DNA of 64,000 bases from Branchiostoma floridae. Taxonomy: Eukaryota; Chordata; Leptocardii; Amphioxiformes; Branchiostomatidae. Position 1 is the first letter of the stretch, and each line of letters opens with the position of its first letter. Below are positions 21,982-56,608 of the stretch, in pieces. The position numbers and the translations under genes are program-made. The DNA lies in the NCBI RefSeq assembly GCF_000003815.2, contig NC_049993.1, positions 4,845,167-4,909,166 on the forward strand, given 5' to 3'. The notes below the pieces were generated by a model. It was not told the DNA's origin and searched no databases. It worked only from the letters and a program-made list of their open reading frames with translations.

Positions 21982-22488
21982 CAGGAGATGTCAATCAATC
22001 AATCAATCTGATCAGTGGATTGGAAGGACGGGAGGGACACATGAGGAGCTGCAGTGTTGGAACAATAGCAGTTTAAACCCTCGGTATGTGTGCAAAGTCA
22101 TCATCATGATCATCATACTCCTGTGCAATTGTTGAACTTGACGTGTGGCCCGCTATGGACAGAAATGTCTATGACTATGAGAATGACTGCATCATTACCA
22201 GTATTTAGTGAGGAATGATTACAAAATGCTTTTATTGAAATGTCTTCATGGATAATGGTCAATGTCATGTGATAAGAAAAAGACTTGGTATCCTAGAATG
22301 GAGAATCATTGTATACTTCAAAATACTTTTGATAAGCTTTGAATGTTTGCTTAAGAATTTTCTGAAAGAATTTGGTGAAAGTCATAACTGGAATTCTTAA
22401 CTAATCCATAGTACTACTTATTGGGAATACTGTATCACTTGTTTTATATTATAAACTTGTTCTTGCTACTCCGAGCAAACCTTTTATA
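21982..22488. other. 3' flank of SMIM27-like gene and 5' flank of HAD gene
   Basis: AT-rich non-coding sequence with short (AATC)n and (ATC)n runs near 21990 and 22100. No splice-compatible upstream exon of the HAD gene was evident. Confidence 0.4.
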
Positions 22489-24297: not shown

Positions 24298-24701
24298 TAA
24301 TTTGATATTAATGACTGTATAGACTCTGACTACTGTGATATAGTTGAAGCCATACACAAGTTGTACTTTGTCAGACCTATAGACAGAGTTTAAGTGATGT
24401 CACTTGTTTTTACATAAGTACTGTACTTACTGTCCAGGCCGTCATTTGTTGTCCAAAACTTTTACATCAAACCTAAACAAGCGACCTTGATAGCTCAATC
24501 AAATTCATATAACTTCACATTTATATCATGCTAAAGCAGCACTTATATACATACTGTAAAGCTTTTTCCTCAATTTTGATTTTTTTTTTTCTGGGCTAGT
24601 TTCGGACGTGTTGTTCCACAAACTGGCATGCACAAAATTTTCAGATCATTGACTTTGACTTGATAGGCTTGACAGATCCAAACATCGACAACTTTTCAGT
24701 G

Positions 24702-27700
24702 TCAGAGCTTAGTCAACAAAACTGACACCAGACATGCAATGAGAAGAAGCGCGGTGGGCACGTGATTGTCACGTGAGCCGCTGACGTCAGGAGCCTTTAA
24801 CAGGTTGCCGTATTTGTCCAGGAGGTGAAGAGCCACGCCATTGGTCCATCCGTAACCGTCCTGAAACAAACAGTTATTTACGACTTTTCATAAACATTTT
24901 TATGTTGTCCAGCATTATGATAATCTTAATTTCACATTGTAAACTGCTGATGACTTTAAGTGTGTGTGCAGAGAATGCTGAAAGAATGAAAGTCACCTTC
25001 AGTATTGAAGTTTAGTTGGAAGCAAATGAACAAGAGCTATTTTTATGTGTTGACCAGTGTTTGAGTTTTGACTCTGTACTAGTTGACATGATGCATGTAT
25101 TTGACAGCTATTTACATTGTTTGAGAAGCACGTGTACCTTAGCCTGGTTTCCAGCCGTATTATAGCTGCCGAGTTTCTTCTGTCCTCATTATAGCTCCCG
25201 AGTCTCTTCTGTCCTCAAATGCTTATTTGCAGAGAGGACAGAAGAGACTTGTGAGCTATTAATATGACAGGATACCAGGCTACATGTACCTACTTCTGCT
25301 CAGGCTTACCTTAACTTCCTCATCACTGTTGCGTGGGCGTCGGCGAGTGATCACGTTGTACTGAGGAAGGAAGCAGAGGTATATAGTTTCCTTAGAATCT
25401 AAATTAGATACTGAAACAATGGTTGATAAAACATTACATTGCCTCAATAACGGTTGGTAAATTTTATCACCTGGATTGCATTATCAGGTGTTCCTTTATA
25501 GGTTTGAGTTGAACCTCAAGAACAATCTCAGACACAGCAAAGTCTTTGTGGTTGCTGTGATTGAATGATTGAGTAGGAGTGAGAGGATGAATATCAAGAT
25601 AGGTTTATGAAGGTTAGACATCCAGGTAAACAATATTCCAATACGAGTGGATCAACAATCCCAACCCTAAACTAGAAAGGAGAACTTAGCATAGAACTCT
25701 CCAGCTTTGCCTCACAAAGAAAACAGTAACTTTTACTATGGTACTGTCTTACCATAGGAACCTATAACCAATGGAGAATCGGTATCCAAATGCTTACTTC
25801 AGTATGCTAAAGGTTAAGGACTAAGTGAATCTCCACAGTCAACTTTGAAAGCCCAAGTTTCCTCTGCTATGCATCTTTGATATTAGGAAACTTACGGTGT
25901 CCCACATGGCGCCCGTGTGCACCCAGTCCCTGTAGTTAGACTCCAGCCACTTGCGGGTCAGGTTTAGGGCCGCGTTCTTGGCCTCCGTCAGCTGGCTGAC
26001 CGACAGGGCTTCGATCAGAACAAAGTGGTTCGGTGCGGTGCCGTACGGATAGTCCCAGGCCTGGCCGCTCTCCTGTAGCGAGGCTGGTACACCCCCAGTG
26101 TAGTTCAGCACATCTGTGTATTGCTGAAATATTGGGATACAGAAATAGATATTTCAGGTGTGACAATATCCTGTATACAATGTTTACAGTCACAAGACTG
26201 TGCCACATTTGTAGTGCCTACACCAGTGGGGTAAAAGGGCTCCTTCAATCCATCAGTATGACAATACAGTAAGGTGCATATATACTCCATATCATATGTG
26301 TAATTTGATGGCTCCTTACTAGATTTGAGATTTAAGTCATCATCGCAGTGCGATGGACATCCAACAACAAAGATTTGAGCACATTGGTGTACAAGTCTGT
26401 GTCCGACTGACCAGTTCGATTTCCTTTGTCCAGTTCTTTATTAACCAATCGTAAAGACTGCAGAATCATTTTACGTATCAGAAGACATTCTAAACCATAT
26501 AGAAACAGGAACAAGACAGACTGAATATAGGCATAAAGAGGAGAGAACATTGGTAACTTGGAATAAAGATCACATCCACTGGCTACAACATCATTTGATG
26601 TTCACTATCCACCTAGGATCTGCTGATCTACAACAGCATGGTACTTCATGGGCAAACATCATGTGCTGTAGTTACAACCATGTTGTCACAACTTCCTTAC
26701 TTGTAGTCTACAACTGGACTTCTACAAAATTTAAGAAGATTTATGAACCCCAAACTTGTTGGGCATTAAAGTACCTACCTTCAGATAGCTGAGGACCCTA
26801 GCTTCAACATTAGCATCTCCCATGCCGTTGCCATAGCACTTCGCCCACAGAGGCCATATGTTAGAGACATAGAACCTGTGGGAAAGACATGATAACTTAC
26901 AGATGCTATCCTGATATCTTTACATGTTTTCTTTTTCTTTGTTACTCAAGCACAGTATTCCATGCACTACTTCTCATTTCAGATATTAATCGAATTTAGA
27001 TTTGTCAACTGCTCTTGTCACCCATTGGTTTATCTTAACATGGAGCAGATAGACACCTAGGCACACATGCTTCCTGGATATCTTTCTCCCAGTGTAATAG
27101 AGCGGTCCAACTCAAGGTAGGAACCATTTTTAAACATCTTGATGAGTTGATAGTCCAAGACTGAACAGATCATGACTTTTTGTTCTCTTTTCTTTTGTTC
27201 TTTTTTGTTTGTTTCGTTTCATTGTTGTTATTTATTGTTGTTGTTGTTGTTTGTTCTGACCTGTCCCTCCTCCCTTCAGCCTGTAAGTCATAGTCGAACC
27301 ACGCCCCTCTCCTCTCGCTCCACAGCACCTTATCCATGGCCACGCGCCTGCGCGCTGCGGCGTTGTTGTAGTACCCCGCCTTCCTGCGATCACCTGGGAA
27401 CGTATTCATGATTTTTAAAGAATAGAAACATTGCAAGTTTTGAATTGGTTACAGTTTGACAGAGGAGTCACACTAACGTTTACTGAGCAAGGAAAATGTG
27501 CCATTTTTTTGTTCTGAATGTCTAAGTCAAAATTGTAACCTAAAACCATTCAAGACAACGTTACTGTAACTAATGCACGATAAAAATATAGCAACAATGA
27601 CACACTGGATCATAGAAGTTATTTTCCCCATTCTCTTGTGATGTACGTGTAGATTCCCTTTTCAGCACCAAGGACAGGTCCACAATGCTCACGCCATGTT

Positions 27701-30700
27701 TCAGATAAACGCTTTCCTCGAAGACAAGTAACGCCAATTCCATTCTAAAATGTTAGTGCCCTTCTTTCTACCGACTTTCCTGTCTATTGTCTATTTTCCG
27801 TCAATAAATCTTCGTCGCTTCAACAGTACTCTAAGAGTAAATAGTGTCACCTGCTCTTTGGTAGATGCGAGACAAGGCCACCTCGTTGAGACACATCATG
27901 GCGTTTAGATCCACGGGCACGATGTTACGGGTCCGGATACTGGCTAGCGTGCGAGCCTGCGGGCCCACGTCAGCCAACCACCGGGAGGAAAACTCCCAAC
28001 CCGACTCCACTGCCGTGGCCACGTGGGAGTGGAAGTCAGCCGGGTCCGCACCTAGGAGAAATACATTGCTCAATAACGCCATCTAGCGAAACTTATCAGT
28101 ACTGCAGAAATGGTCACTTGTTAGTACAGTTGATGATCTTTCACGTTACTTAATGTTACGTAATGTTACTGTTCTATGATAATCATAAATCGTCTTTCAG
28201 ATGAATGTTTGCTTTCTGGTACCAGTGCGTATAAACGGGTTTGAAACTTTAAACTTTGATATAGTTGTATTGAACCGTCACCGTGATGACATTGTCAATG
28301 TCATTGAAGAGTAGTAGAAAGAAAGTGCAAAGTTGACATAAAGACTTACCACGTTGGAGAGATCTTGCTGTTCGCTCGTCTAAGCGCCAAGCCTCTGGCC
28401 TGAATACAACAAATACAGTTGCTGAATGAAATGGAGCTTTCATTTTCTAGACTCCACGAAGCGTCAAACTATATGTACTTTCAAATCGATCAGCGTAAGG
28501 ACCGCAAGGGGGCGTGATGTCACACACGTTTTTACCTTGATTGTCCCACCAGGACGTGATAACGGTTGAGGGTGTGCATGGAGCCGTCACTTCCCCGGAT
28601 GTCAACAGTTCGGTTGTTCATCCAGAAGTCGTACTCCTGGGCGGGAGAAAAAAAACATCAACACAACGTCAGGTCAGGTCAGAGCTTCAAACGCGTTGCT
28701 TCAAAACAACAGAATTGCTCAAAATCTTGAATGTCCAGTCATGGAAAACCCTTAATTATTCGGCTGATGTATAAGAAGAAGTTGAAAGTCAAACGCGCAC
28801 ATGGCGTAAGAAGGGGTGAAAAGGGTGATAACTTCAATAATAAAAGATCTACACCGAATTGCATACGATGCAATGTTATACTTTCTTAGAATTATAGAAC
28901 TGAAACATTGGAGATTTCGCTTATGATATTTAGCATCAGCTCACCCTTTCCAGGGTAGGAAGGAGGCTTCTGATCAAAGTGATGTCGTTGGAGTGTTCAA
29001 GATACTCCAACACGGTAGGGATGAGAAGAGGCGGTCCGCTGCGCTTACTTTGATACACCCTCCCCCCTCCGGGAACGTAACCGAACCTGGGGAAAGGGAA
29101 TAGTTTATTTGAAGAAAAACATGCACATTTCATTTGCGTTACACTTTCAATTTTTGGACTACTTTTCCGATGTTGCCTAACTTGTAACAGAGAGCCTAGA
29201 CTGTTTACATAAGGAACGAAAGCAAACGAAGGCAATGATAATTTAGAATTATTTGTAACACGGGACATGATATAAAAGTCTTTTAATGTGTATGAGATGA
29301 ACAACACCTTTGGACCATTTCTGCGAAATTCTCAAGTATCCCCTGCACTGTCTCCAGCATGTTGGACAGCAGTAGCCCACGAACCGTCCAGTACGTGTCC
29401 CTGGACGACAAGAAATGAGGAATGCAAATAAACTGCATTATAAGCAGCATGACCGGAAAACCTAGAAGTATTTTCCAGTCAATACTGCTAACGTTAACGT
29501 TAAGGTTAACGGTGTAACTTGACACTTCTTACATTTCTTAGATTTCGTTTTATCAAACGCATGAAGATGTCGCCTGTAAGGAGTTTAAAACATCTGCTAT
29601 AGAGGAACGCCACTGATGGCCACCAGTTCTACCATTCAAAATGTTTTCTCGTTAATGTTCTCATTATAAAGCATTGTAAACTTGCTCATGAGTCCACGGG
29701 GGGCGCAATCAAAGGTTGGAACAGCCATTGTGCCGTACCGTAGTGTTTCTCGGGAACGAGGCCATCCTCTGTTTAGCATGGTTACGGACGATTCCATATG
29801 ATCTTTCAATGCGGGGCCCGATTTCTTGTTATAGTCTTTAGGCAATTAAACTAAGACTGGGTGTAATTAGAGCAATTGAAACACCATTTTCGATAATAAA
29901 ATCAAAGTACTGTATACTTCAATTGCACGAAATGCATCGTTTCTTTGCCAACACATTCACTTCCCCGTTGCTATGAAACGTTGCTATGAAGTCCAAATGG
30001 AACGTCCCCATTGTCCCCAATACGATTTGCAACTTTTTGCATTTTCAGTCACGAAAATGGCTTCTCTTACAGTTAGCACCTATGCTGAGAAAAATGGAAA
30101 GAATTATATGGAAGATCGCCATTTCATGTTCAAGGTAAGGGTACAGTGGATGTTCCTGCCGTTTTATCCGGAGTCGTTTTGCCAACTAAAAAAGTTACGT
30201 CCGATTGTTGTGGGTACATTCATGAGGGGTTGAAAAGATGGATTCTGGCTGCAACTAACGTTACCATTTTTGTTTCCCGTCTTGTATTAACTGTGTAAAA
30301 GACCCAGCAATATTTTACCACATAGTCCTTTGGTATCCTACCTTTCTCGTTGATAGTTTCTGCGTTAGGTTACACAATGTTATAGCATAATAAGTGCTTC
30401 ACAACCCAGTTGTTTCTCGTGAAGACAGTATAATGCTCACCTCCATTTTGGAACTTGTTTTATTAATAGTGCAGAAAAATCACTGTCATCTGCGTGTTGG
30501 AGCTTCATAGTCTTGCTTGAACATTCGTTTGACACCTTACTAAACTTAGAAATATTCAGTAGAGTTGTTGTTATTGTTGCAAACCACGTTTTATTGGTGT
30601 ATAGTGTCACTGAAGTAAAATAAAACTTCAACACTTGTGTTTGTTGAAGTTGAGATGTGGGGTGGGTTTTCGGTTTCAACTGGTTCGTTCGGCCCTGGAA

Positions 30701-33700
30701 ACTAACGGTTTCAGAAACTTTGAGATTGAAGTTTGATCCGTTTTTTCTCTGAAATGTTGGGCATTAAAGGAATATTTGTTAGCAAATATTTGCCGTGGAT
30801 TTTTGCCCACAACAGCATCGAAATGGCGTCTTTGTGGCGGGCGTGTGTGACGGACACGGTGGCGAATTCTGCTCGGATTTCGTCGCCCGGGACCTCCCCG
30901 AAAACCTCTCGGCTGAGATGGACTACCACACCGACCACGAGACCGCCCTGAGACGGGCCATCCGCGAGACAGACCGGGACTTGTGTACCCGTCTGACCGG
31001 GAGATGGAAGAAGGCAGGGACTACGGCAGTGATCTGCATGATCACGGACTCGGAGGTCATCGCTGGCTGGGTTGGCGACTCTCAAGCCGTCCTAGTCCGA
31101 CCCAACACCCAGGGCATTCCTCTAGTCACCGTGCACAGGTAGGGTTCGCTCGCTGTCTTTTTTGTTTTTAGAAATTTACTACATATAAATTATGATTGTT
31201 GTTTTAATGTAAATCGGAATTTTCATTGTTTTATCCTCCTTATTTGGTGCTGATTATATGGTAGAAATAATTTCGATCCAGGCAGTTACTTATTCCAAGA
31301 ATCTCACGGTAAAATGGATGTTCTCAGTTCAAACTTCGAACTTGACAAACATTGTTAGTGCATCTAGTTTGTAAACGTGTATTCTACGTCTTGCGACAAT
31401 GGAATTATTCTATTGCAATGTTCATTTCTCAGACTCCAACAACTGCATGACATGTTTTTACAATTGAGTGAGTCTGTATTTATCAGATGTAATTTTTGAA
31501 ATATGTTGCATCATTCCAGTTTTCTAGAGTTACTTTGTCAGTTGTTGACTGCTGTAACTATCAATGATGTTGTCATACATGTATCACTTATGTATCGGAT
31601 GAGTCTACTTATTTTTTTTTTTTGCTAAAAGTTCCAAGGGAGGTTTACACATAGTAGACTTCAGAATGTTTTCATAACTTGCTATTAAGTCAGACTTAAG
31701 ATGTTATTGTTATTCACGTTGCCAGTGCTGCCTTGAAAAATGTCTCAGGTTTACGTAAGGAAGCTTTTGAAAACTGTAACTTTTACAAGTTATCAAGCAT
31801 AGTTGTGTTTTAGCAAAATCTTTTTTCTCTTACGTCAAAAGTGCCTTGAATTAACTTAATCTTTTTCAGTTAAGATTTAGGTCAAGAAATGTTTAACAAT
31901 CTTTGTTGTTCAAAGTTATCAAGTAGAGTGTACTGTTGTGTTTTGGCAAAATCTCTTTCTCCAATGCCAATAACGATGCAGGATCAGTCTGTTTTAAGTT
32001 TGGTTAAGAAACTTTTAAAACTCTTGCCAGTTCAAAGTTCTCAAGCAGAATGATGTTTTGCCAAATCTTATTTTCTCTTTCTTCAATGTTATCTTTGTCA
32101 ATGCTGCTCTTAGGCCACACCAATTTAATGTCTTGGTTCACGGATTCGCTCGCTCCTATTTTTTGGAAAACAAAATAAAAATAAAAATTACCACACAGCA
32201 AATTTTCACCATTAATGAAACCATTCACCAACTTTCTGGTGTAGCAAACATAAAAGCTGACACTACTTTTGTAATTTTCAACGAACAGGTGCTGTTACTG
32301 TACAGTAATAGTGTTTTTGTACTTTTTTCAAGCTGAAAACTTTTTACTCTTTATGTTTTGGATTAGCCGTTACCTTTACCCCAACCATTTTACAATTTTT
32401 ATTTTTATTTTTATTTCGCCCTCTCGCTCCATATTTTTTATGAAAAAATCCGTGAACCAAGAAATTAAATTGGTGTGGCCTTAGGAAAGTGAGCCTGTTA
32501 CTGTTAGATTTAAGGTTTACTTAAATAAGCTTTTGAAAGCCTGTGCTGTTTTAAAGTTCTTTGGTGTAGTTATGTTTTGGCAAAATCTATTGTTGCCAGT
32601 GCTGCCTTGAAAAAAGTCAGTCCCAAAGTTTAGGTGTGGAATTTTTGAAAGCGGCTTTTATACCCCCCTCACATTAGGCGCGATTCAATCGGACGACGAG
32701 TCTGCGAGCTCTAATTTACGAGGAGGCATGACCCTGATGCCGACGAAGAACTGGCAGAGTTCCGCCTTCCCGTCAGGGCTGAGTATGAGGCGAACATTTG
32801 GCGTGGCGATATCGCATGTGATAGCTTTCCGAAAGCTTGCGTGAGGTTTAAGAGCCAGATCATCGGGTTCCCTACATGAACGCTGGGGAATGAAAAGATT
32901 TCCACAGTCACCGAACGCTCCTACCGAAAAGCAAATATTGCCCCTCGCATACCCAGTCCGTGGCTCCATTGACTTAAGGAGGGCCGGATAGATTCTGAAT
33001 CCACATCAAAAAGNNNNNNNNNNNNNNNNNNNNNNNNNNNNNNNNNNNNNNNNNNNNNNNNNNNNNNNNNNNNNNNNNNNNNNNNNNNNNNNNNNNNNNN
33101 NNNNNNNNNNNNNCATCAGGGTCATGCCTCCTCGTAATTTAGAGCTCGCAGACTCGTCGTCCGATCGAATCGCGCCTAATGTGAGGGGGGTATTAGCCCT
33201 AAAGTTTGTGTTTTCTCATTCTTCAAATAGACACCCTTCACGAAGATTATTAAGACTATCAAAAATAACAAAAACTTACTGCAGGCCAACAGCAAGTACT
33301 GATCATTGTAAACCATGAACTTGTAAGCAATAGATGGTACAGTTTGAGGAGGATTTTCAGTAGATTCAAGACAGACCTAGCAGCAAGAAAATCAAAAGAG
33401 CAGCATTCTTACATCGGATTCATATGCAGATTCTATTAATTTTAGGTTTAGGTTAATAAATTTTTGAAGCTCTTCCTCTTTCGAAGCCCTCAGGGAGAGT
33501 TATGTCTTATAAGTTATGATTATTTATTGTCATGATTTATGATTATTATTGATTATTTAGCTGGTGTGTTACGCCGAATGGCGGTTATACCGGCTATATA
33601 GATACAGCTACAGATACAGATTATTGGTATATGTTACACACAGATGTGCCTGTGAGAAAGAGAGACAGCGTATCAAGCAGGCAGGAGGAACGGTCACTTG

Positions 33701-36700
33701 TTACAAGGGAAAGTTTCGTCTGAACGGAGCTCTGAGTGTATCACGATCCCTGGGAGACACAGAGTACAGAGTGAGTAGTCAGCTTGTGTCTCTCGTTTAT
33801 GTCAGAATTAGGGCTGGGTATCGGTACAGCGTACCGGTACAAAACCGTTTTTTCTTATTGGACCGGTCCAGAAAAACCGGACCTGAAAAAATTAGGTGAC
33901 TGGATGTTGGACCGATTAGAAAATTAACAGATTATTTCATAAGGCATTCACACGTTTTGGCACTTGCAGGTGGAAGAAAATAACAAGAGTGAAGTAGAGT
34001 AGAGTTTATAGTAATTTCTACCAAGTTTTACAGCCAATCGTACAGGTGCAGTTAGCGTTGTAGGATTTTAAAATGGCAGTGTAAGTCTAATACTCCACCA
34101 AACAGGTTTCTTTGTAGTGAAATGGACCATTGGTATGAGTCAATACTGCATCAGGTCCAGGTTCAGGTCCGGACCTGGACCTGATCCTTTGGACCTGAAC
34201 TGGACCTGGACCTGAATTTTCTGTACCGGTACCCAGCCCTAGTCAGAATGATTTTTTAAAAGTTCTGAAAGTTCATAGTGTGAGATTTTATTCTAGTATA
34301 ACTGATGACATGATTGGAACCTTATCATAATAGTTGCCTAATGTCATGATACAAATGTATTTTTCTTTAGTGAGATCTTTAGGTAAATGTAAAAGATACA
34401 GCGGCGATCGCGTTATAGTTAACACCCGTCAGCGTCAGTGACGCGTCAGAAATCGTCAGTGACGCGTCAGAAATCGTCAGTGACTGGTCAGAAACCGTCA
34501 GACATCGTCAGACGCCCGTCAGAATTCGTCAGAGTCAAACGCTGACCAGTCAGCGTCAGCGTTAATGATATGTATGAGATGGGGTCAGGTTTCATGTTTA
34601 TTTTGTACCCCGACAAGACAATAGCAATTTTGTCACCTCCTAGTGTGCGAGTTTTCGTTGCGATGTTGCGGCAGGTCGTTGACCCCCGAAATAGGCAGCT
34701 TACGTGGATATACCACGCTTCTGGGAGGGGAAAGTTGTTAACTTAATAATTGCTCTTCTGAACAGCTTAAATACACACACAAACCTAAAAGGGGTTGGCA
34801 ATGATTAGAGTATGAGTCATTCTCGTTGAAGATTAATTGCTAAAAAAAATTCAGTGTTGTCTTCTCGAGCCGACTGTGGCCATATTGTTTAAATTTATCA
34901 CGTTGTTATTTGGGCTCTAACCGCTCGACCGATCTGAGACTGGGAGGGACTTATATACGGACTTTCAGTGCTTTAGCGACTCATTTCTTAGATCGTTATT
35001 TTCTACGGGTTTCATTTGATGAATGTAAGAAAATGGCATCGTGGTCAATAATGACACCGGGGAAATCGTCTGACACGGCCGGGTACAATCGACATTTTTG
35101 ATCATGCGAAATTTCCAGGTACGGGTGAAGAAAAGCCGGCCTGAGAAACCAATTGTTATATTCTTTAGCAGATAAATGACAGATTTTATCGAGATCGATT
35201 CTTGTCTTGCACTTGTCGGCAAATACCGATATTTTTTGTATTGCTTCAAAAACTCACACATCGACGGGAAACACGTGTAGTTTCCAATTTCCCGAGCCGA
35301 AACAGTCCGTGCGATTAGAAAAACCGCTCACAAAACTGCGATCTACGTAGTAGCTAAGTGAATACTCGTATATGATTGTAACGCAGTTTGAAAAGCTAGC
35401 AATGATATCCGATGTTACAAAACTGTGTCAGCGTTTTTATGTATCCACGGAACAAAGAAAAATACTGCAAAATGTAAAGCACAGCGCATGCTAAAAAAGA
35501 TGTTGGACCCGAACGTACCTTGCTGTACGTGTAAACAAACATGAATGCTAGCGGTACAACTTCTCTGCGGGTTCAAACTGCGATTGATTAAGCCGAAGAT
35601 TTAACTAAAATTTGTGCACTGTAACAAAAATAGCGAGAACAGTTTGGGATCTGAATGAAACTGAACTATAGATTATACGATTTGATACATCGGCTTCTGA
35701 TCGCGCGCGAAACAGCAGCTCCGAGGACGGCCACTACAAATGTACACTCTCCCACGATGCGCGATCATGATTGACAGATCGCGGTTGTTTGAAGATCGTG
35801 CCGCCCGCGCCGGCCTGTCTGAAACTTTGCAGGACGCAAATTCAATCATTTTTGACAGCCAACCAGCAAAGAGGAAAACTGACAGCAAAAATAACTTGAT
35901 ATTTGTCTATAAATGAGGTTCTGTCGCCGGCGTTCGAAGAACCCCGAAACATGGCTCGCAAAAAATAAACGAAAGACTTGCAGTTCGAAATCTAATACCG
36001 GTAAGACCAAGGAGGTTACTTGCTAACTTGGTAAGACGGAAAATTTGTGGCAACCAGGAACCGGGATAAATCTAAAAGAGGGAAGGGCCCATGCAGAAAT
36101 AAATGTTTTGTCCATCAGACGTGCCTGTCGAAACATTGAATGAGCCAACTGTCTCTTTCTGTCAAATTTATGCATGGTCAACATATCCGATGCTTTATTT
36201 AGTACATTACTTGTGCTCGCAATTATGAGGGTAACGAATTTCTGTTTAGGCTCTGGAAACTACAAGGGCGTGTTTCCCGTCGGCGTGCGAGTTTTCGCAG
36301 GTGATTACAGGGGATTGTTGTAAACAAAACAAAACATTATCGTGTTTGGCGATAAGTGGAAGACAAGAATTGATCCGGTAAAATCTCTTGTTATTAATTA
36401 ATGTTTTGAGTAGAGTTACTACTATATGGTTCCTCAAGGCGGTTTTATTAAATCCTTAGAATTTTTGAGTCCATGGCAAACGTGTACAATCATCATCATC
36501 TGTGTACAATACATTTTACCGCCATGGTAAAGATCACCGCAATTACGATAAGTTGATTATTAATTAGACATCATTAGCTACTTTTGTAGGCTAGGAATTT
36601 AGGTTTTCGTCCGCCGGCTTTTTCCTGGAAACACTGCTGCTCGTACCGTCAAGGGCGCAACTCAGCATGAAGACCTACCTGTTCCTGAGGGAGCTCTTGG

Positions 36701-42700: not shown

Positions 42701-45700
42701 CCTTCTTCAACAGGAGACATGGTGGATGCCTGGACAATGTCTCCAAAGACCTGTTCGTGCGAGCGCAGAATGCCGGCGCCATTGACAACATCACCATCAT
42801 GGTATGCTTCTTTCGAAAGCACCTGTCCTGTCCCTACCAATCGGAGGATGAGGTCAGCAGAGTCAGCCGGTTGTCCCACCTTGCGGAGTTGGATGATGAT
42901 GATGATGATGAGGGAGGCTCTGATGAGGACGAGATTGACAGATTCCTGGCCGAGGTCCATGCCATGACTCCCGAGAAGAAGCCCGAGATGACTCCCGACC
43001 AGCACCAGAGCACTCCACCAGAGAGCCTTCCATCCTTTGCTCCAACTTGCAAAGGCATCACTTTGGGCCAGAAGGCAGCAACGACCACACCAACTCCCAA
43101 GACACCAGTCGCTGTGCACCGGTCATTCTCAAGTGTAGCAGTCTCAGCCCAGTCAGTCGAGTATGTCAACCCTACAGATTGCTTGCCAGCAGTTGAGTTC
43201 AACAGGCCGCCCTCTGGGATCTGTGCACCATCTCCGACTCCTGTGAGACTGTCCCAACCATCGCCCCCTCCTGTGCCAACCAACAGCCCGCATCCTACAA
43301 CTTCAGCACCGACATTCAGTCCAATCGTAAGCTTGCACCCCACAGGGCCGCGACCAACCGTGCCTCGCTTTTCCGCCTACAAGCCCCGCATGTACGACCA
43401 GTGGCAGAGAGTTCCGAAAAAGATCAAGTCTTCGACTGCCCACGCAAACCAGACACCCCTTCCTCTGAAGAAAGTGTCCATCGAGATGGCATCATCCAAA
43501 CCAGCGGCAAAACAGTATGCCAAGGGATCGCCGGTACTCACAGGCAATCGCAGGTACTCATCAGTAAGTCGTGACAAGATGCCTGACAAGACGAAGGCCA
43601 AGCAAGTGGCCTCCGCCCCTTTGCTCCTTATGACAACAAAGTTGGAGACAACAAACAGGCCATCCCACCAAGCTGCAAGGCCATGCCGCAAGTGCGAAAG
43701 TTGCGAGTCCGGTCGCAGTCCGGTGAGACCATGCTGGAAGGTCACGGAAGCCCAGGGAAGTGGAGACGAGAAACCAAAGAAGAAGAAGAACATCATCAGG
43801 AGGGCGCTGAAGAGTGGCAAGAAGAGGGGTCAGGAAGTGCTGGAGGGCGGGCGCAAGGCGCTGAAGGCGAGCCGAGAAGTCCTGCACGCCAAGGTGACCT
43901 GGGTGGGAACCCACATCAACCGCTTGGGCTCTGCTGTGTCGAGGAAGAACCGCGTGTCTCCACTGGAGCCAGGTTAAGTGCATAACAGATAATCATAGAT
44001 CATTTCTAATTTTTAATTAGTTAGAGCATGGCTTGTCAGGGGGATTGGGGGAGGATCTGGGAGTTGTCATTAACCACAATTTGTCTTACCTTAGACTTGC
44101 CACCAAATTCAATTCCACATTATAATTTTCTACTGTATTCATACATGACACAAACATTTCTATCATCAAATACATTATTTCTGTTAGTTTCAATTTGGAA
44201 CTTTTGTGACTGAAATATAGTTTTACTCAAAATAGTTCAAACTTATTACAAATATAATCTAAAACCCTTCTTGGTGACTCTGGTTACACAAAATATGACA
44301 TTTTAGACTTTTTGACTCAAACTTTTAGCCCAATACATTATTATTGACACAGAAAATCAACTTACATGCTTATAGACCCATACTAAACTGGTCAGTTTGA
44401 GGAGCTTCAAAGATGGCCAGCCTGGTGTGGCTGGATTATTCAGGACCATGAGTAGAGTTACAGTATAAGAAAATGGTACAATTAAAAAAAAAGGGTTTAA
44501 GATTATTATGGTTTTACAAAAACAAAAAGGGGAAGAAAAGAAAATAATGTAATCTGTTAGTTTCAATTTGGAACTTTTGTGACTGAAATATTGTTTTACT
44601 CAAAATAGTACAAAATTATCACAAATATCATTTAAAACCCTTCTTGGTGACTCTGGTTACACAAAATATGACATTTTAGACTTTTTGACTCAAACTTTTA
44701 GCCCAAAACATTATTATTGACACAGAAAATCAACTTACATACTTATAGACTCATATTAAACTGGTCAGTTTGAGGAGCTTCAAAGATGGCCAGCCTGATG
44801 TGGCTGGATTATTCAGGACCAAGAGTAGAGTTACAGTATAAGAAAATGGTACAATTAAAAAAAAAGAGTTTAGAATTATTATGGTTTTACAAAAAGAAAA
44901 AGGGGAAGAAAAGAAAATAATGTAATCTGTTAGTTTCAATTTGGAACTTTTGTGACTGAAATATAGTTTTACTCAAAATAGTTCAAACTTATTACAAATA
45001 TAATCTAAAACCCTTCTTGGTGACTCTGGTTACACAAAATATGACATTTTAGACTTTTTGACTCAAACTTTTAACCCATTACATTAATATTGACATAGAA
45101 AATCAACTTACATACTTAAAGACTCATATTAAACTGGTCAGTTTGAGGAGCTTCAAAGATGGCCAGCCTGGTGTGGCTGGATTATTCAGGACCAAGAGTA
45201 GAGTCACAGTAAGAAAATGGTATAATTAAAAAAAAATAGTTTAAGATTATTCTGGTTTTACAAAAACAAAAAAGGGGAAGAAAAGAAAATAATGTGAGAG
45301 GAAAAAGTGTGCCGGTCTTCACCAAACTAATTAACCTGAATAACAGAACATACCTCATCAGAGATGACGATACAGTGACAACGGACGGCTAACTGACATT
45401 ACTAAAGAACCATGGAGCAACTATTTCTATTGGTTGAGATGGAGCTGAAGCCTCGGGCTGAACCTGAATGACATTATCATTCAACAAATTGATTGGAAGA
45501 AACTCTGAAGTCTTTTGTGATTGGAGGATGACTGGAAGGGACAAATGTCCAGAGGGATCAAACTAGTTCAGACTAGTTTGACAGTCAAGTGGAATCTACT
45601 CAGGTTAGGTGTAAACATGATACAGTCCACACAGAATGACTGCTGGGTACAGTCTGCCTGGGGTGCTGGGGAAGTGCTCAGTAGTCATGCTGGGAGTCCA

Positions 45701-48700: not shown

Positions 48701-51700
48701 GTACTCACTGTCACCCAACAGGGTGGTAGCCAGGGAGTGGCGCCCCTGCCATGGAGGAGCCAGTCACAAAATTAGGCTTCTTACGTTAACTACAAGCAGC
48801 AGACACTGTTATTTGGTTCTTGGTGAAACCATTTTATGATTAAACAGATGGAAGTGATAGCAAAAGTTATTGGACTGTACATGTGGTACTCTACTCTGTC
48901 AACCTGTATTTAAGGCCTTCAGGTCTGGCATCTGAGGGAGCTAACTGACCAGTGGGATAAAAATTTAGAAAAAAAATATGTGTAGAGACAGTAAAAAAAT
49001 TGTAGAAAAAATGGTGACTCTTAGATATCATTACATAACCTCCCTATATAATCCATTTTATACTGTCTATTAAACTGCATTCCTTATTCTGTACCAAACC
49101 CTCAGAAAATGTAAACAGTAACATCAAATTTAGTGATCAGCTTACTCTACTATACACATTCCCAGCATGGGCTGAACTTTGTAACATAATTTGTACTTTA
49201 TACTACGACCTATTGATTATAAAAGAACACCTTTTGCCGGTACATTGATAGATATTGGTACTCACTGTCACCCAACAGGGTGGTAGCCAGGGAGTGGCGA
49301 CCCTGCCATGGAGGAGCCAGTCACAAAATTAGGCTTCTTAGGTTAACGACAAACAGCTGTTAATTAGTCCCAGGTGATTATTGTGTTATAAGTCTTACCA
49401 GGTAAATGCTACTCTTACAGCCTTATCTTATATTAGAACATTTACATAAACGACTCCCAGTGAATCCCCCAACCTTTTAACACCTTACCAATTTACCATC
49501 AGAAAGACAAGCCATGTTCTATTCCTGCTGTGATGATCCTACAATTAATAAACTAATTTGTATGTAATCTTATGTAGAATAGAGAAGAAATATGTGTAAT
49601 ATTACAAATTGATATGACTTGGAAATTGACATGTATTTTGCGCTGTATATCACATGCTTTTGATTTCTGTGTCACAATTTTGTACCTTTTGGTATTGTGA
49701 AATACAATATTTACTTTAAAGCCATGTCTAATTATAAGTATATATACCATGTGCATGTTAAAGATTTTCGTGCTGCATACTTTGTGCATGTCACATGTTA
49801 TCTGACTTCTGTGTCACACAGTACAATTTTGTACATTCTCATATTGTGAAATACAACTTGTGCATTAAACACATGTCTAATTATAAGTGTATATATACCA
49901 TATGCATGTAAAATATTTTTGCTCTGCATACTTTGTGCATGTCATACAGTCACATACTATCTGACACAGTCACAGTTTTGTACAGTTTGGTATTGTGCAA
50001 TGCAATATTTTCATTAAAACATGTCTAATGATGATTGTATCTATACTGTGTGTATGTTTAACATTTTGTGCTGCATACGTTTGCGCTGCATCACATTCTA
50101 TATGACTTCTGTATCACAACTTGTACAATACATGGGATTGTCAACTGGTAAATCATTGTCTCTGTTTTTACTTGGTAATCATTTATTTTTGGGCCATGAT
50201 ACAATACAATTTCTGGCATTAATACAAGGAGCAGAAGAGCATTAATGCACGGAGTGAAGTGAGTTAATTCACTTCAGGTATGCAAATGTGAGAATATGTG
50301 TGTATGTATGATCGTGTCATCACCCCAAAGGTTTTTAAATCAATATTCTGTCAGGCTACACCAGTGTTCCTGTACGATATTCTGTCAGGCTACACCAGTG
50401 TTCCTGTACGATATTCTGTCAGGCTACACCAGTGTTCCTGTACGATATTCTGTCAGGCTACACCACTGTTCCTGTACGATATTCTGTCAGGCTACACCAC
50501 TGTTCCTGTACGATATTCTGTCAGGCTACACCAGTGTGGCCTGTACGATATTCTGTCAGGCTACACCAGTGTGGCCTGTACGATATTCTGTCAGGCTACA
50601 CCAGTGTGGCCTGTACGATATTCTGTCAGGCTACACCAAGTTCCTGTACGACATTCTGTCAGTCTACACCAGTGTTCTTGTTCGGGCCTTAAACAACTGA
50701 GTTGCACTGGCGTGTGTGGGGGTGGGAGGGGGTTGGTGTCGCTTGACATATGCAAGGTAGAAAATTAACACTAAGTCTTGTTGTAGTCGATCAACATCTT
50801 ACAAGAGGCTACGTCGCTGATTGGGTGTTGAAAAGGCCAATTAAGTGTTGAAACGGCAATTGCCATTCGTCTTTGGCTATGAAAACCCTTAACCATGGAA
50901 TATGTAGGTGAGGTGGGAAAGGGAACTGTTTACCATTTATCAAAGCAAGTTTTCCTATGTTAACTATAGGGGTTTGCTGCAATTCTCCGCCCCACCATTT
51001 TTAGTTCAAAAGCTGCATTCTAAACAGATCTTTTTCAAAGCATGCTTGCAGTGGAGAAGCCAGAAACAAAGAAGATCTTACCAATACTGCATCTCCCTGT
51101 GCTCGCCGCCTGGTATAATGAACGGGTACGGCACGTACATGGAGGAGTGCCGCTCTGGGTAGTCTCTGACGTCACGGCTGACCTAAAGCACCATTAACAG
51201 AACATGGATTTGTTTCGTGTTGATACAACATCAGGGTATCAGTAATATCTTAATGACTGATAATGACTTTAAAGCTATCTCGGTTAGCTAAATTGGCATT
51301 TTGACCTTCCACTGTTTTCTTATTAATGAATTAAGAACGAATGGAGCCGTAACGAATGTTGATAGATGGGCATAAAAGAATTCTAAATCTGATTTTTTTG
51401 GGGAGCAAATTGATGACGTCATCATTTTTATTGCCTCTGATATGATTTTTTTCTATGACAAAACACAGCACTTTGGTACATACCACTGTAATGAAACTTC
51501 GTATTTCGTTGCATAATGATGAAAGCTACAAACGGTTGCGCAAACTGATATCTAGTAACGATCTGTAGTTATTAAGAATTAATTTTTTTCAATTAGATGA
51601 AAACAAACATTTTCTAATTACTACAGATCATTAGTAGATATCATTTGTAACACCGGGAGTCAGGAAAGTCCTATACTGCTCGGATGCGATCCCAGGAGCT

Positions 51701-54700
51701 AGATTAGGACAGAACTTTGGCTACGCTCAACCCAGCGCGACTTTGGCAGGGAAGTGGTCAGGAGTAAAGTCGTGGGAAGGTCCTGAATGTGCGACAGGGC
51801 TTAACCATTCAACATGGCGGATGCTGACAACCTAATCCAGTTTACAATTAATCTATTTCCTTGAGGAAAGTCTGAAACACCATCTTATGACGGTCCTAAA
51901 GTGATTACAACTATTTAAGAAAGTGCAGATGTTTACCCTTTTGGAAAGCTTCTTCCACAAGCCGTGGAGGTCCTCTGCCCACTCTCTGTAGCTCTCATCC
52001 CTGATGCCGTTCAGGAAAGCGGGTCTGCAACAGGTAATTAAAATTCTTAAAATATGTTCCGTACGAAAAGGATGAATTTCCTTGTCCATGACACCCGCAA
52101 AGATTGATGTATCAAACTTTGTTGATATCCATGCGAACGATCATTCGAAGACTAACAACGATTTTAAGAAACTATAATTCTTAAGCCACTAGAAATCCCT
52201 GTACCATGGTACGCCAAGGAAAATGAAAAGAACTGGGATGATGAGAAAATCACAGGTCACAGCAACTATGTAACCCCAGGGTGACAGACTGAATAAAAGT
52301 TCTAAATGGGAACTATGCCGCTCCAAGCGTCTTACCGAGGGACGACTTTGGTACGAAAGATGTCAGTGGCATGAGGAATGAGTCCTCTCTACTTTACATA
52401 GCAACTAAGTTTAACCTCCAACATGGCGGCTGCTAAGTGACGTTGTAGTCACGTGGGTGGAAACACCCCATAGCCGTGCGCTCACCTCTCCTGCCAGTCG
52501 GACGGCTCCCAGTCCTCCAGCTCGGCGCCCGGTCCGGAGAACCACTGCGACACGAACCGACGCATCACCTCCCGGGACCGGATATCCTGGCCCCGGGCCC
52601 GCATGTTGTCAAACGCCCCCAAGATGTCCTCTGTCATGACAAACACAGGTTAGTAAAAACAATGTAGCATTTACCAGGCTCCACAGGTCGCTGGAAAAAA
52701 TAGTAGAAATAGGCCAAATAAGACAGAAAACACGCCAGAGGAGTTGGTTGGCCGAGGAGTACAGTTTGCAACCTAAGGTCTAACTCCTATGGCGTGTTTT
52801 CTGTCTCATTTGGTCAATTTCTACTATTTTAGTACTTTTTTCCAGCGACCTGTGGTGCCTGGTAGAGGCTAAGAACAGTGAAACTATCAAGACCAATCCC
52901 ATGGGGTGTGGAAACTTTCTGGGAGGGGACAGGGAAACAGATGAGTGTCGTCTCCAAGCAGATCTTTTGTGGGAAGATCGATTGTTAGTGTGTCTGAAAA
53001 ATAGGGCAGTCAAGAAACTTTACGATCTTCCGAACGTAACGCTACTTCATGTTTATCCGCGGGGTAACCTATATTCGTTAACGTTGTTTCTAAAAACGGT
53101 ATTTAGGGATATGAAGTCGATAGACTGTGGTTTCAAGTTGCAATGTTTTCAAGATATTGCTGTTTGAAACCACCGTCCGTTTGACACCCTGATTTTGTAA
53201 ACAACGGATATATGTTACCCCGCGGATAAAGGTGAACTAGCGTTACATTTGGCTGGAGATTAACGCCTCTTCAGACCTGCTGCCTGGTCATCTTCCCTCT
53301 TGTCGTGATATACCAGCTCGGACTTATTGGGATCTGTTCAGGAATGTCGCTCCTGACGTGAACTGTCTAAAGTCGGCCCGTCATTGCTACATACCACATT
53401 GCTGTGTGAATGTTTGATAGAAGATGTGGTGTGACATGGGTTGAACAGTTGGACATGCGCGCCATGCGAAATGTGCCACACCCCTCTCTCCATAATCTCC
53501 AAGCAGATGTTGTTGAGAGGGCCACGGAACATAATAACGCGACGTTTGATCACCTTGTTTTTTTAACACTGAATACTGAATACTCCCTAGTAACAAAGAA
53601 AATCCCGGAAAAAAACTTATTTAACACAATGGAACTGTTAAAATGTTACTTAAGACAACGCACCTGGGGAAGACTTCATGCTCATATCGACGAATGTTTT
53701 GGAGTCCTTGAAGACCCGTGTGGACTGTACGGCGTTCAGGAGGGCTCCGTAGCAGTAAACAGGGCTGTGGGGAGGGGACGGGTAAAGACAGTTCAGTATT
53801 TGAAAGCTGTACTTGTAATGAGTACTAGGACTTTTAATGGTTTCAAAGGATCTGGGCAAGAGAATCCAATTCTTGGGTCTTCTAGGCTAACGTCACATTT
53901 CACCTGGGCCAGGCCAGATTGTTTGTGGAAACGAAAAATAGAAACGTACACGTAAGAATATACACAACTATTCTCTTTGCTAATATCTGCTGGGGCCGTC
54001 TTACACGTTGCATACAGTTGCCCCTGTAGGACTAGTGCGCCAGTGGACGAGAGGGTGGAGAAGGACATGCACACCCCTCCTTCACCTTAAAAACTCAAGT
54101 GCAGGCCAGGCAGACGGGTCTGTCTACCATTGTCTTCCGAGACAGACGGATGTCAAAACAAAACAACTATTCTCTTTACACTATTCTCTGTAGTTTGGTA
54201 TTATGTAGTTTGCTTTTATATCATCATACATTTCGTTCCCGAAAGCTACCCGGCCGGGCCTCTGTTTGGAGATGTGACGTAGGCCCAAGAGTAAATTTCA
54301 CATTAGCGCAAGCTTTTTCTGGGGTTCAATAATGCGAAATGAAGTGGATTTTGTTGACTGTCCCTTAAAGCCGATCATTGAAGAAAAGATCAGTTCAGGG
54401 TGACCCTGTGTGAGTTATATATATAGATCTACATCTTTAGCCCAACTAGTAATTACTGTACACGACAACCCAGTCACTCTAGTATGCGGACACGATGTCA
54501 GAACTTTCACGGTTCCTAGAATGATGTGTAAAGTGTAGGATCAAACACTCAATAGTTTCCTCTTAGAAAATGTCATCTATTGTCATCATATATGTGTATT
54601 TAGAAGTTTGTGCACGCCTTTCAAATATATTCATGGTCTATAGTAGCATAGATGACTTAAAGGCACTTGGGTCTTCAAATATCGCATATGTTTCATATGA

Positions 54701-56608
54701 ACTACATTACTCTATTAACTAAAGAACTTAGTCAAAGAGCATGAACTGTTTCGGTAAATAGAAATCTTCTTTATTTAACACCATTTTCATCTCCTCGCCA
54801 TTGTTATTCTCTTTACCACCATACCATGGTACCAGGACCATTATTCCTATCTCACCTTACAGACATATTTCTGAATGGTCCATAGGGTTTCACAACGTTT
54901 TAAGATGAGATTTGGAAGAGACTTAAGTCACGCTTAAGAATGTCGTGATGTCTGGTGCGTTCCCTAACAGGGCCTGACCTTGACTTGACCTCTGCGTGCC
55001 GCGTCCTTTATGCAAACAGACAATAACATACGTCATCACGCAGGCACGACAAGGTCAAAGTCAAGGGTACCTACCACTAGGGCGTCAACATCGCCTCTTA
55101 AAGTCAACCATGAATTTCCCCTATTTTGTACAGACGGAAGAAACATCGGACTGGTTGTTTCTTGACCCATACATGAACTAAGAATCGAACGTCTAAAGGA
55201 AAGTGGATCCGTCTGAGAATGGCGCGGAAAGAGATTTCTGCTTCGGGAAGATGTAACGTTAATCCAGCTTGGGAGATTAATAGAATCAACACTATTTCCT
55301 GCAGTACAATGTGAACTAGTCAGAATTGCCCTGAAGAAGGTGACAGACGGTCACCGAAACGTCGGTGAGAATGAAGCATTGGTTGTGTAAAAAGAGTCTC
55401 TTTATTTAGAATCAACACTGAGTTGAAAACGAGAGGTTAATCGCCAGTTTCTGAATGGCACCGCTTAATAGAAATTTCAGAAAACAGAGAAGGGACTAGA
55501 ACAGCGTGTTGAATTGTGCTTCCAACGAAAGTTCAGAACAAAAATGCATTCCGCCGTATGATGGATAAAGATGTTATATCTGAAATGGAATACCAAAAAT
55601 AAACTTCTCTGAACCAGTTTCAATTCTGTAGCTTTGACCAAAGCCATTTGCACAGTTGCCTCTTCTCTCACATAGTCACGAGACTATAGTCATTGGAAAT
55701 AAGGTTCTGTCCCAAGTTAATCTACTGTCACACATCTTTCCAATGAATTTGCTCCGACCACTCCCCAACCAAAGAAGGTCCTGGGTTGGGAGGCGCCTTG
55801 AATCGATCCTATCCTAGCTCCAGTCTGCTCCTTCGATCCGTTCGCCTCCAAGTAGAAGATGACTTTTCACAACATTAGAATTCTATAGTTGGCTGGCAAA
55901 CGACATTTAAAGACAACCTCGCCGTCGCAACCACAGAAGACCACGAGCACGACTAAGTTCCAACCATGGTCTGGAGAAGGTCGGGAGTCAGTGGTTTGCT
56001 CTGTGTGACATGTACAAGGGCTAGCTTTAAATAGACGACCGTACTTGATCTAGCATGTCTGAGGATTCAGTAGGTTGTTCTGAAAGAACACGACCATTGA
56101 CTGGCGCTCGTTTGGATTGTCTACAGGACGTCGGTACGGTAAGTACAGGTGTCCTGGCGAGAATAAACTTTACGCAGGAATCAAAACAAAACTTGTTCGG
56201 TGGTTCATGTCTGCTCACCTTAACGACGAAATAGTGGTGTATTATCTACACTGCTATTAATATTGGTGATTAAGACATAAAGATAAGCTAAAGAGATGTT
56301 ACATAATACTTAATTTATCCTGTATTGCAACATAAGTTGGGTACATACAAATGTATTCATATACCTAGCCAGGACTGGCCTATCGAAAACGCGTCGGTCC
56401 CTTCTTCATTATTGTTGCGAATATCAAGTTTCAAGCTTCATCTACATCGTGCATGATAGCAAACATCATCGTAAACCTACCTGTCACAGGCAGGTATATC
56501 TCTTAGCGCCGTGCCATCCTGGTCGTCTCCCCCTGAAATCCACCTCTGAGCCCGGCAGGAACACAGACAGGCCGCCGCCAAGACCGCGAACACAAGTCCC
56601 CCCGCCAT
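24702..56608 (-). CDS. Trehalase-like GH37 protein with altered active site, 15 exons
   Basis: Minus-strand exons: 56481-56608, 53664-53764, 52486-52630, 51937-52024, 51082-51182, 29308-29400, 28945-29086, 28536-28636, 28350-28399, 27851-28051, 27261-27393, 26779-26875, 25896-26123, 25310-25360, 24702-24860. Phases agree at every junction and give 605 residues (human TREH 583). Residues 1-20 are a signal peptide; the end (TALLLIACLVSVLLTKL) is a GPI-type signal, so the protein should be cell-surface. It aligns with trehalase over its full length (YCYGALL, FKDSKTFVDM, VPGGGRVY, RSGPPLL, ESGWEFSSRW, VPVDLNA, GAWFDYDL, GYGWTNGV). Family members hydrolyse trehalose to glucose, but key positions differ: PGGRF is PGGEH (E181), the catalytic acid Asp is E336, the base Glu is D535, and the Gly-rich lid is replaced by ITRRRPRNSDEEVK. 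It may be inactive or act on something else. Intron 5 contains a PP2C gene on the plus strand. Confidence 0.93.
25141..25284. repeat. Snapback inverted repeat
   Basis: AGCCTGGTTTCCAGCC...CTTCTGTCCTC and the inverse GAGGACAGAAGAG...GGATACCAGGCT form an imperfect hairpin about 144 bases long. It lies in the last intron region of the trehalase-like gene, close to exon 14. Confidence 0.7.
30057..43977 (+). CDS. PP2C-type Ser/Thr phosphatase, PPM1E/PPM1F-like
   Basis: Exons 30057-30134, 30816-31138, 33644-33770, 39697-39833 and 42714-43977 have GT/AG borders and consistent phases and give 642 residues. The catalytic domain (about 1-255) has the PPM motifs in order: YMEDRH (E19, D20), VCDGHGG (D38, G39), AGTTA, WVGDSQ (D114), SVSRSLGD (about 165-172), GSDGFFD (D202) and DNITIMV (D246). 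These aspartates bind the two catalytic metal ions. The wording TGTEEYLVLGSDGFFD and IDNITIMVCFFRKHL is closest, from memory, to PPM1E/PPM1F (POPX, CaM kinase and PAK phosphatases), not PPM1D. Residues about 270-560 are acidic then Pro/Ser-rich and likely disordered; the end is strongly basic (KPKKKKNIIRRALKSGKKRG), a possible nuclear localisation signal. An in-frame upstream ATG at 29973 could extend the start. The gene is nested in an intron of the trehalase-like gene. Confidence 0.88.
32113..32480. repeat. MITE with GGCCACACCAATTTAAT ends (copy 2), TTA duplication
   Basis: Same family as 9344-9704, interior inverted. TTA at 32110-32112 and 32481-32483. It lies in PP2C intron 2. Confidence 0.88.
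32661..33192. repeat. Inverted-repeat transposon interrupted by an assembly gap
   Basis: TACCCCCCTCACATTAGGCG at the left and CGCCTAATGTGAGGGGGGTA at the right are inverted. The arms continue about 75 bases through GACGAGTCTGCGAGCTC and GAGGCATGACCCTGATG. TTA flanks both sides (32658-32660, 33193-33195). The arms surround the 100-N gap, which probably reflects failed assembly of the hairpin or a nearby identical copy. Confidence 0.85.
33014..33113. other. Assembly gap (100 N)
   Basis: Exactly 100 N, a conventional placeholder, so true length is unknown. It falls in PP2C intron 2 and does not affect the exon models. Confidence 0.99.
33809..34241. repeat. hAT-type MITE, 433 bp, TSD GTCAGAAT
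   Basis: TAGGGCTGGGTATCGGTAC at the left, GTACCGGTACCCAGCCCTA at the right, and a perfect 8-base duplication GTCAGAAT at 33801-33808 and 34242-34249. It lies 38 bases downstream of PP2C exon 3. The interior has repeats of GGACCTG. Confidence 0.92.
34399..39471. mobile_element. 5.07-kb inverted-repeat DNA transposon with CGTCAG-rich ends
   Basis: The left end CAGCGGCGATCGCG is followed by ATAGTTAACACCCGTCA; the right end is the inverse, TGACGGGTGTTAACTAT then GGCGTGAACGCCGCTG. TA lies on both sides. About 150 bases inside each end are packed with CGTCAG/GACGCGTCAG words. The interior has no frame that I recognise as a transposase (longest about 98 codons), direct repeats near 36600-36905 and 36910-37170 (both with CCGCCGGCTT and AGTTCTGTTG), and a TTTATTGCAC LINE-type tail at about 37660-37690. 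It is therefore probably non-autonomous. It fills most of PP2C intron 3. Confidence 0.75.
40224..40576. repeat. hAT-type MITE, 353 bp, TSD TGTGGTGT
   Basis: Second copy of the 21457-21818 family with ends CAGGGCTCTAGACAGC and GCTGGCTAGAGCCCTG and a perfect 8-base duplication TGTGGTGT at 40216-40223 and 40577-40584. Confidence 0.92.
40917..41257. repeat. MITE with CAGGGCTCGAAAT ends and 5-bp CCATT duplication
   Basis: CAGGGCTCGAAATACCACC and GTATTTCGAGCCCTG are inverted; CCATT lies at 40912-40916 and 41258-41262. The interior carries many copies of TGCAGGT and ACCTGCAC, which form hairpins. It lies in PP2C intron 4. Confidence 0.8.
41834..42019. repeat. Snapback MITE, CTCTACCAGGCT ends (copy 1)
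   Basis: The left arm (CAGGTCGCGGGAAAAATAGT, then TTGGACAAA) and the right arm (TTTGTCCAATTTCTATTATT, then CGACC) are inverted around AGTTAGCTAACC...GGTTAGCGACCCAGCTAACT. A related copy is at 52671-52869. Confidence 0.75.
44180..45296. repeat. Tandem array, about 375-bp unit, three copies
   Basis: The landmark CAATTTGGAACTTTTGTGAC recurs at about 44190, 44566 and 44938; the copies are close to identical. It lies just downstream of the PP2C stop codon and contains only short incidental frames. Confidence 0.9.
45470..47430. repeat. About 2-kb element with long inverted ends around a 342-bp tandem array
   Basis: Left 45475-45607 (AACTCTGAAGTCTTTTGTGA, GATCAAACTAGTTCAGACTAG, GTGGAATCTACTCAGG) is repeated in inverse at 47289-47427. 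Between them the unit beginning GACTGACTGTAGTGGACTGG recurs at about 45746, 46088 and 46456 (period 342-368), and AGGGCAGGGTCTAAG words follow to about 46870. Confidence 0.8.
47690..49350. repeat. Tandem array, about 490-555-bp unit, four starts
   Basis: GGTACTCACTGTCACCCAAC recurs at about 47706, 48199, 48702 and 49256, each followed by CAGGGTGG...AGCC and GACCCTGCCATGGAGGAGCC. The phrase TTGGTTCTTGGTGAAACC is shared with the element to its left. Confidence 0.9.
49555..50110. repeat. Degenerate tandem array, about 150-bp unit
   Basis: The word set CATGTCTAAT(TAT)AA, GTGCATGT and GTCACA..TTTTGTACA recurs roughly four times. Diverged and AT-rich. Confidence 0.6.
50339..50690. repeat. 34-35-bp minisatellite
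   Basis: About ten copies of a unit ATATTCTGTCAGGCTACACC followed by AGTGTTCCTGTACG or AGTGTGGCCTGTACG. It gives overlapping open frames in several phases that are not genes. Confidence 0.95.
51538..51650. repeat. Small snapback inverted repeat
   Basis: AACTGATATCTAGTAACGATCTGTAG at the left pairs imperfectly with CTACAGATCATTAGTAGATATC at the right. It lies between trehalase exons 4 and 5. Confidence 0.6.
52671..52869. repeat. Snapback MITE, TACCAGGCTCCACAGGTCGC ends (copy 2)
   Basis: The inverse GCGACCTGTGGTGCCTGGTA closes the element; inner arms AATAGTAGAAAT...GTGTTTTCTGTCTCA also pair. It is the same family as 41834-42019 and sits about 40 bases from trehalase exon 3. Confidence 0.8.
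53035..53247. repeat. MITE with GTAACGCTA...TAGCGTTAC ends
   Basis: The arms GTTTATCCGCGGGGTAAC and GTTACCCCGCGGATAAA are inverse; the palindrome continues to both ends. It lies between trehalase exons 2 and 3. Confidence 0.8.
55320..55405 (+). mobile_element. Penelope-like element terminal fragment with hammerhead-like core
   Basis: It contains CCCTGAAGAAGGTGACAGAC followed by GGTCACCGAAACGTCGGTG, that is CTGAAGA, a 6-base-pair stem GGTGAC/GTCACC, GAAAC and GTC, then a tail with CTCTTTATTTA. This resembles repeats of Penelope-like retroelements known to encode hammerhead ribozymes. It lies in trehalase intron 1. Confidence 0.5.

Follow-up and report, generated by a model that had tools for sequence, protein, structure and literature searches.

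The locus analysed here raises the question of what becomes of a trehalase of glycoside hydrolase family 37 (GH37) when its acid and base carboxylates are exchanged for one another. The gene lies on contig C15 of Branchiostoma floridae, within a stretch of 64,000 nucleotides (the window). According to the relevant passages of PMC8277472, trehalase genes have been retained in many animal phyla and B. floridae possesses a homologue with a trehalose-phosphate-synthase domain, which makes trehalose biology in this lineage a live question.

Splicing at GT-AG junctions joined 15 minus-strand exons (56608..24702) into a single frame of 605 amino acids (1818 nt including the stop codon), and all 14 introns were of the GT-AG type with compatible phases. 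Exon boundaries were chosen to give GT-AG introns, so that independent support for the model comes from the unbroken frame and from collinear homology; with 605 open codons followed by a stop, the 15 intact exons of the original prediction were recovered in full. Exon 1 (56481..56608) contributes the start codon and a hydrophobic N terminus, and is followed by exons 2 (53664..53764), 3 (52486..52630) and 4 (51937..52024), each bounded by GT-AG junctions. Most of signature motif 1 is encoded by exon 5 (51082..51182), in the altered form PGGEHREMQYW (Glu181 codon, 51104-51102), and its end (WDTY) by exon 6 (29308..29400), which is preceded by an intron of 21.7 kb. Exon 7 (28945..29086) carries an altered motif 3, GGGRVYQSKRSGPP, and exon 9 (28350..28399), which follows exon 8 (28536..28636), retains the Arg and Glu of the RPE triplet. 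Motif 4 reads ESGWEFSSRW and is located in exon 10 (27851..28051), with Glu336 (codon 27995-27993) at the general-acid column. After exons 11 (27261..27393) and 12 (26779..26875), exon 13 (25896..26123) supplies an altered motif 2, AWDYPYGTAP (Thr489 codon, 26039-26037), as well as Asp535 (codon 25901-25899) at the general-base column, the surrounding WDTYNV block being split by the joint with exon 14 (25310..25360). The latter encodes an Arg-rich loop where a Gly-rich lid is expected, and exon 15 (24702..24860) ends the frame with the DGYGWTNGV block, a hydrophobic C terminus and the stop codon. A putative signal peptide and a putative GPI signal are suggested by the mean hydropathy of the first (1.8) and last (1.9) 20 residues, which is their sole basis.

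The 21.7-kb fifth intron contains, on the opposite strand, two frames matching protein phosphatase 2C (30783-31142 (+) and 33561-33899 (+); PF00481, E 1e-13 and 6e-11). An open frame at 42676-43977 (+), which lacks a Pfam match, may be the C-terminal end of the same nested gene, and a gene in this position would partly explain the size of the intron. Elsewhere in the window, a reverse transcriptase frame at 13233-15209 (-) (RVT_1, E 3e-27) probably belongs to a non-LTR element, and a long tandem repeat at 15635-17154 (-) contains open frames built of TQQLHTGEYRTGV-like repeat units. A frame of 812 amino acids at 9937-12375 (-), rich in Arg-Ser repeats and unmatched in Pfam at E 0.001, resembles SR-type nuclear proteins by eye, and a 252-aa frame at 22405-23163 (+) matched DUF2608 below threshold (E 0.0006; 19.9 bits, cut-off 22.6).

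Membership of the 605-aa protein in the trehalase family was established by its match to the PF01204 (Trehalase) profile, which scored 461.2 bits against a curated cut-off of 21 and covered profile positions 2-512 of 512 (residues 60-571). Searches with phmmer matched PDB trehalases with E values down to 1.6e-98. The protein is collinear with the GH37 alpha,alpha-trehalases AtTRE1 of Arabidopsis (7e9u) over 511 residues and TreA of E. coli (2jf4) over 525 residues, at identities of 36% and 33%, respectively, and it keeps most of the near-invariant columns outside the signature motifs. It differs from these enzymes in having Glu for the acid Asp and Asp for the base Glu, in matching none of the five strict motifs and in having the Gly-rich lid swapped out. 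In the phmmer alignments to PDB chains, Glu336 (GAG) was paired with TreA Asp312, whose counterpart in AtTRE1 chain 7e9x is Ala, and Asp535 (GAC) with TreA Glu496 (TreA chain indices were converted to protein numbers by adding 30). These two TreA columns are described as the general acid and the general base in the pertinent passages of PMC7658089 and PMC9604388. In an alignment of 84 rows, the acid column was Asp and the base column Glu in 80 of 80 bacterial GH37 sequences (the best 80 of 589), in TreA, in AtTRE1 and in the lancelet's own second trehalase copy, described below. A misalignment of the catalytic positions was ruled out by this alignment together with those to the PDB chains, and the Asp-to-Glu and Glu-to-Asp exchange put forward in the original prediction stands, as does the spacing of 199 residues between positions 336 and 535. 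The bacterial loci were the best 80 of 589 confirmed matches found with patterns for motifs 1 and 2, which means that conservation in these two motifs is partly built in; both catalytic columns sit in motifs 4 and 5, outside these patterns. When 91 loci were scanned with a DNA pattern for peptides resembling SGWEFSSRW, 3 of them matched, all corresponding to the window's own region.

The exchange is accompanied by further substitutions in the active site (TreA numbering). In motif 1, Arg152 is replaced by Glu, Phe153 by His, Tyr157 by Gln and Ser161 by Thr, the last of which the motif allows; the first two are Glu181 and His182 of the window protein, so that the predicted loss of the PGGRF Arg to Glu was found along with a change of the Phe. 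Asn196 and Gln207 are both replaced by Gly, in addition to the change of Asp312 to Glu. In motif 2, Gln446 is replaced by Ala (Ala482), Asn451 by Tyr, which the motif allows, and Trp453 by Thr (Thr489), which adds a change of the Gln to the Trp-to-Thr substitution of QWDxPxxW already predicted. Besides Glu496 to Asp, the Lys of EKYD (Lys497) is replaced by Thr. On the lid side, Gly509 is replaced by Ser, Gly510 by Asp, Gln515 by Lys and Phe518 by Tyr, with a gap at Tyr512; the lid itself reads YNVITRRRPRNSDEEVK, as expected for the Arg-rich loop that had been predicted there. A changed catalytic site, including both catalytic columns, is thus confirmed. The equivalents of Trp159, Arg199, Arg205, Arg277 and Glu279 are retained, and so is a Glu aligned at TreA position 511, in a lid whose alignment is uncertain. 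Among the 16 motif substitutions, only the acid/base pair and Phe518 to Tyr have a BLOSUM62 score of at least 2; for two given positions to belong to this class together, the chance is 0.025, a figure obtained post hoc. This conservative exchange of acid and base is the main hint of a possibly surviving acid-base chemistry.

When the strict signature motifs were applied, as defined in the part of PMC10969515 devoted to them, the window protein met 0 of 5, the lancelet's second copy 4 of 4 readable ones, TreA 4 of 5 and AtTRE1 2 of 5. The result for AtTRE1 means that failing the strict motifs is no proof of inactivity. Motifs 1 to 5 were met by 77, 6, 61, 69 and 25, respectively, of the 80 bacterial sequences (best 80 of 589); since so many fail motifs 2 and 5, these two discriminate poorly, and the weight lies on a column-by-column test.

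The original prediction had called for a search for a canonical paralogue elsewhere in the genome, and such a gene was found. When the whole assembly (513,431,437 bases in 431 contigs) was searched with PF01204, 13 candidates were scored and 8 matches obtained, and these 8 fell into two loci only, namely the window gene and a second gene on contig C6 at about 21041860-21056550. Further trehalase copies were rejected on the same evidence, the DNA of exon 13 also having a single match in the assembly. The readable exons of the C6 paralogue contain ESGWDFSSRW with the canonical Asp, AMWEKYDV with the canonical Glu, QWDFPNGWPP, IPNGGRVYYTRRSQPP and a GSGGEY lid; motif 1 and some of the other exons are hidden by runs of N. 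The two copies are 54% identical over 390 codons, with pS 0.72 (a nearly saturated dS of about 2.4) and dN 0.41, the ratio being a rough bound. A tree built from 24 sequences joined them with 100% support, with branch lengths of 0.54 for the window copy and 0.30 for the paralogue. Given this identity, the near-saturated dS and the grouping of the two copies, the duplication that gave rise to them looks old. By eye, the N and C termini of the paralogue appear hydrophobic like those of the window copy. The two genes differ in an apparent intron of the paralogue in the region of window exon 13 (after PPIQ, ~21053470), and perhaps in another in the region of window exon 7 (~21047880), both of which the window copy lacks. 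At about 21050413-21051070 of C6, the 5' part of the paralogue's exon 10, up to ESGWDF, is tandemly repeated in 101-bp units; each unit is preceded by an acceptor-like sequence (by eye), and the full exon continues from the last copy only.

The distribution of changes over the protein was analysed in columns showing at least 97% invariance across 82 reference GH37 sequences (80 bacterial ones, the best of 589, plus TreA and AtTRE1), with the five published motifs and the lid counted as motif columns. The window copy was changed in 17 of 48 motif columns and in 5 of 44 columns outside them (P 0.008). When the one column that is gapped in the window protein was counted as non-motif, the values were 16/47 and 6/45 (P 0.027). 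AtTRE1 showed the reverse pattern (4 of 49 motif and 14 of 46 non-motif columns changed), and its share of motif changes differed from that of the window copy (P 0.0012). The paralogue was changed in 2 of 36 motif and 2 of 25 non-motif columns that were readable, and the most altered of the bacterial sequences (best 80 of 589) had 2 motif changes. With motifs 3, 4 and 5 and the lid alone, 10 of 28 columns were changed in the window copy, compared with 1 of 28 in the paralogue and 3 of 29 in AtTRE1, and the excess over the window copy's own non-motif columns persisted (P 0.018). Relative-rate comparisons were then made between the two lancelet copies. With AtTRE1 as the outgroup, motif columns showed 15 changes specific to the window copy and 1 specific to the paralogue (P 0.0005), the corresponding non-motif numbers being 19 and 23 (P 0.64). 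With TreA, the counts for window copy and paralogue were 15 and 2 in motifs and 22 and 20 elsewhere; with the bacterial consensus, they were 14 and 3 in motifs and 34 and 26 elsewhere. A low motif count in the paralogue is expected, because motif columns are by definition those conserved in working enzymes; what is telling is the clear excess of the window copy over the paralogue in the motifs, which has no parallel elsewhere. Together, these data argue strongly for an active site that was selectively rewritten in a protein whose remainder stayed constrained.

An origin of the exchange in the assembly or in the choice of exons is very improbable. The sequence does come from a single assembly, but seven exons (5, 6, 7, 10, 13, 14 and 15) contribute to the 17 motif changes, the window offers no second candidate exon, and the DNA of exon 13 matched the genome once. 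Canonical exons 7, 10 and 13-15 had no clear counterpart elsewhere in the window, and matches to paralogue peptides beyond the gene's own exons had E values of at least 0.24. Neither duplicated exons nor direct repeats of at least 40 bp were found in 24500-29600. Exon 14, which encodes the Arg-rich lid, scored 21 as a candidate in its intron, compared with 14 for a shortened form of itself and 6 for the next different candidate, and this score was reached by none of 100 introns shuffled as single bases. Alternative exons with canonical residues in the window were rejected on the basis of these paralogue-peptide, repeat and exon 14 candidate searches. A recently relaxed gene heading for loss, for which the probability also appears small, would account for changes in the active site as the result of neglect, and would sit well with the longer branch of the window copy and with the presence of another gene's exons in the 21.7-kb intron. 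Against it, all 15 exons and their splice sites are intact, with each of the three outgroups the window copy and the canonical copy show similar amounts of non-motif change, and a concentration of changes in the motifs is not expected from relaxation alone. The intact frame and the equal non-motif change in both copies make decay unlikely, in agreement with the original prediction that the gene is not a decaying one; where the changes fall is strong evidence against mere decay and suggests that a protein still under constraint has changed its function.

As for what that function may be, catalytically dead relatives of glycoside hydrolases (pseudoenzymes) exist as a class, and the window protein resembles them in an intact fold, predicted here from sequence, in altered catalytic residues and in an apparently active paralogue. 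It differs from them in that their carboxylates are lost, whereas here the two are exchanged for each other. Altered catalytic residues coincide with constraint elsewhere, as is the case for a pseudoenzyme, the constraint being judged from the comparison with the paralogue. From what is known of the family, the hydrolysis of trehalose has very probably been lost. The reading favoured here, in which we place middling confidence, is that the duplication left a conventional trehalase gene and a second copy that would keep the (alpha/alpha)6 fold around a rewritten active site; its product would be secreted, GPI-anchored at the cell surface and no longer able to hydrolyse trehalose. Its role would most likely be non-catalytic, with the old pocket or the new Arg-rich rim binding a glycan or a partner. 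A trehalose-binding receptor, as originally suggested, is unsupported as such: the equivalents of Arg152, Asn196, Gln207 and Trp453 are all replaced, and the loss of several signature-motif residues makes trehalose binding itself doubtful. Against a non-catalytic role speak the carboxylates at both catalytic columns, the several conserved residues that are kept and the longer tree branch.

The main rival, a possible but less probable reading, starts from these same residues and holds that the protein may be a working inverting glycosidase of altered specificity that uses the swapped pair. One carbon would be added to the acid side chain and one taken from the base, leaving the summed reach of the two unchanged but shifted; combined with the rebuilt sugar contacts and the Arg-rich lid, such a shift would suit a different alpha-glycoside. 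This accords with the presence of carboxylates at both positions amid motif changes that are mostly less conservative, with the retained equivalents of Arg205, Arg277 and Glu279 and the Glu aligned at 511, and with non-motif lineage-specific change equal to that of the canonical copy. However, the Glu/Asp pair occurs in none of the 80 bacterial sequences (best 80 of 589), the surroundings have changed too (the equivalents of Arg152, Asn196, Gln207 and Trp453 and the Lys of EKYD are lost), and the argument from a conservative pair is weak and post hoc, the side-chain lengths being a putative geometry. Its more specific form, a GH37-derived enzyme in which Glu serves as the acid and Asp as the base and which acts on a sugar other than trehalose, the swap in side-chain length accompanying the change of substrate, can be put forward only tentatively. 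That the protein tolerates the substitutions and continues to act as a weak trehalase is improbable, even though trehalase is the closest known family and the protein retains 39 of the 44 near-invariant columns outside the motifs: none of the five strict motifs is matched, the genome also has a copy with canonical catalytic residues, and the replaced Arg of PGGRF is reportedly one of the three arginines essential in Spodoptera trehalase. The passage of PMC9604388 on this point states that three essential arginines were found and no more than that.

In the open-licence literature, mostly judged by title, no earlier report of this protein or of a GH37 member with exchanged acid and base was found, which is weak evidence of absence. 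The locus and its paralogue provide, in one animal genome, a clean pair: one trehalase gene whose catalytic residues are canonical, and its sister copy, in which the active-site motifs are rewritten. This pair allows a direct test between the favoured reading, in which the fold was recruited for binding, and one in which a swapped acid/base pair still cleaves a sugar. If conserved in other lancelets, the window gene would point to an unrecognised surface protein.
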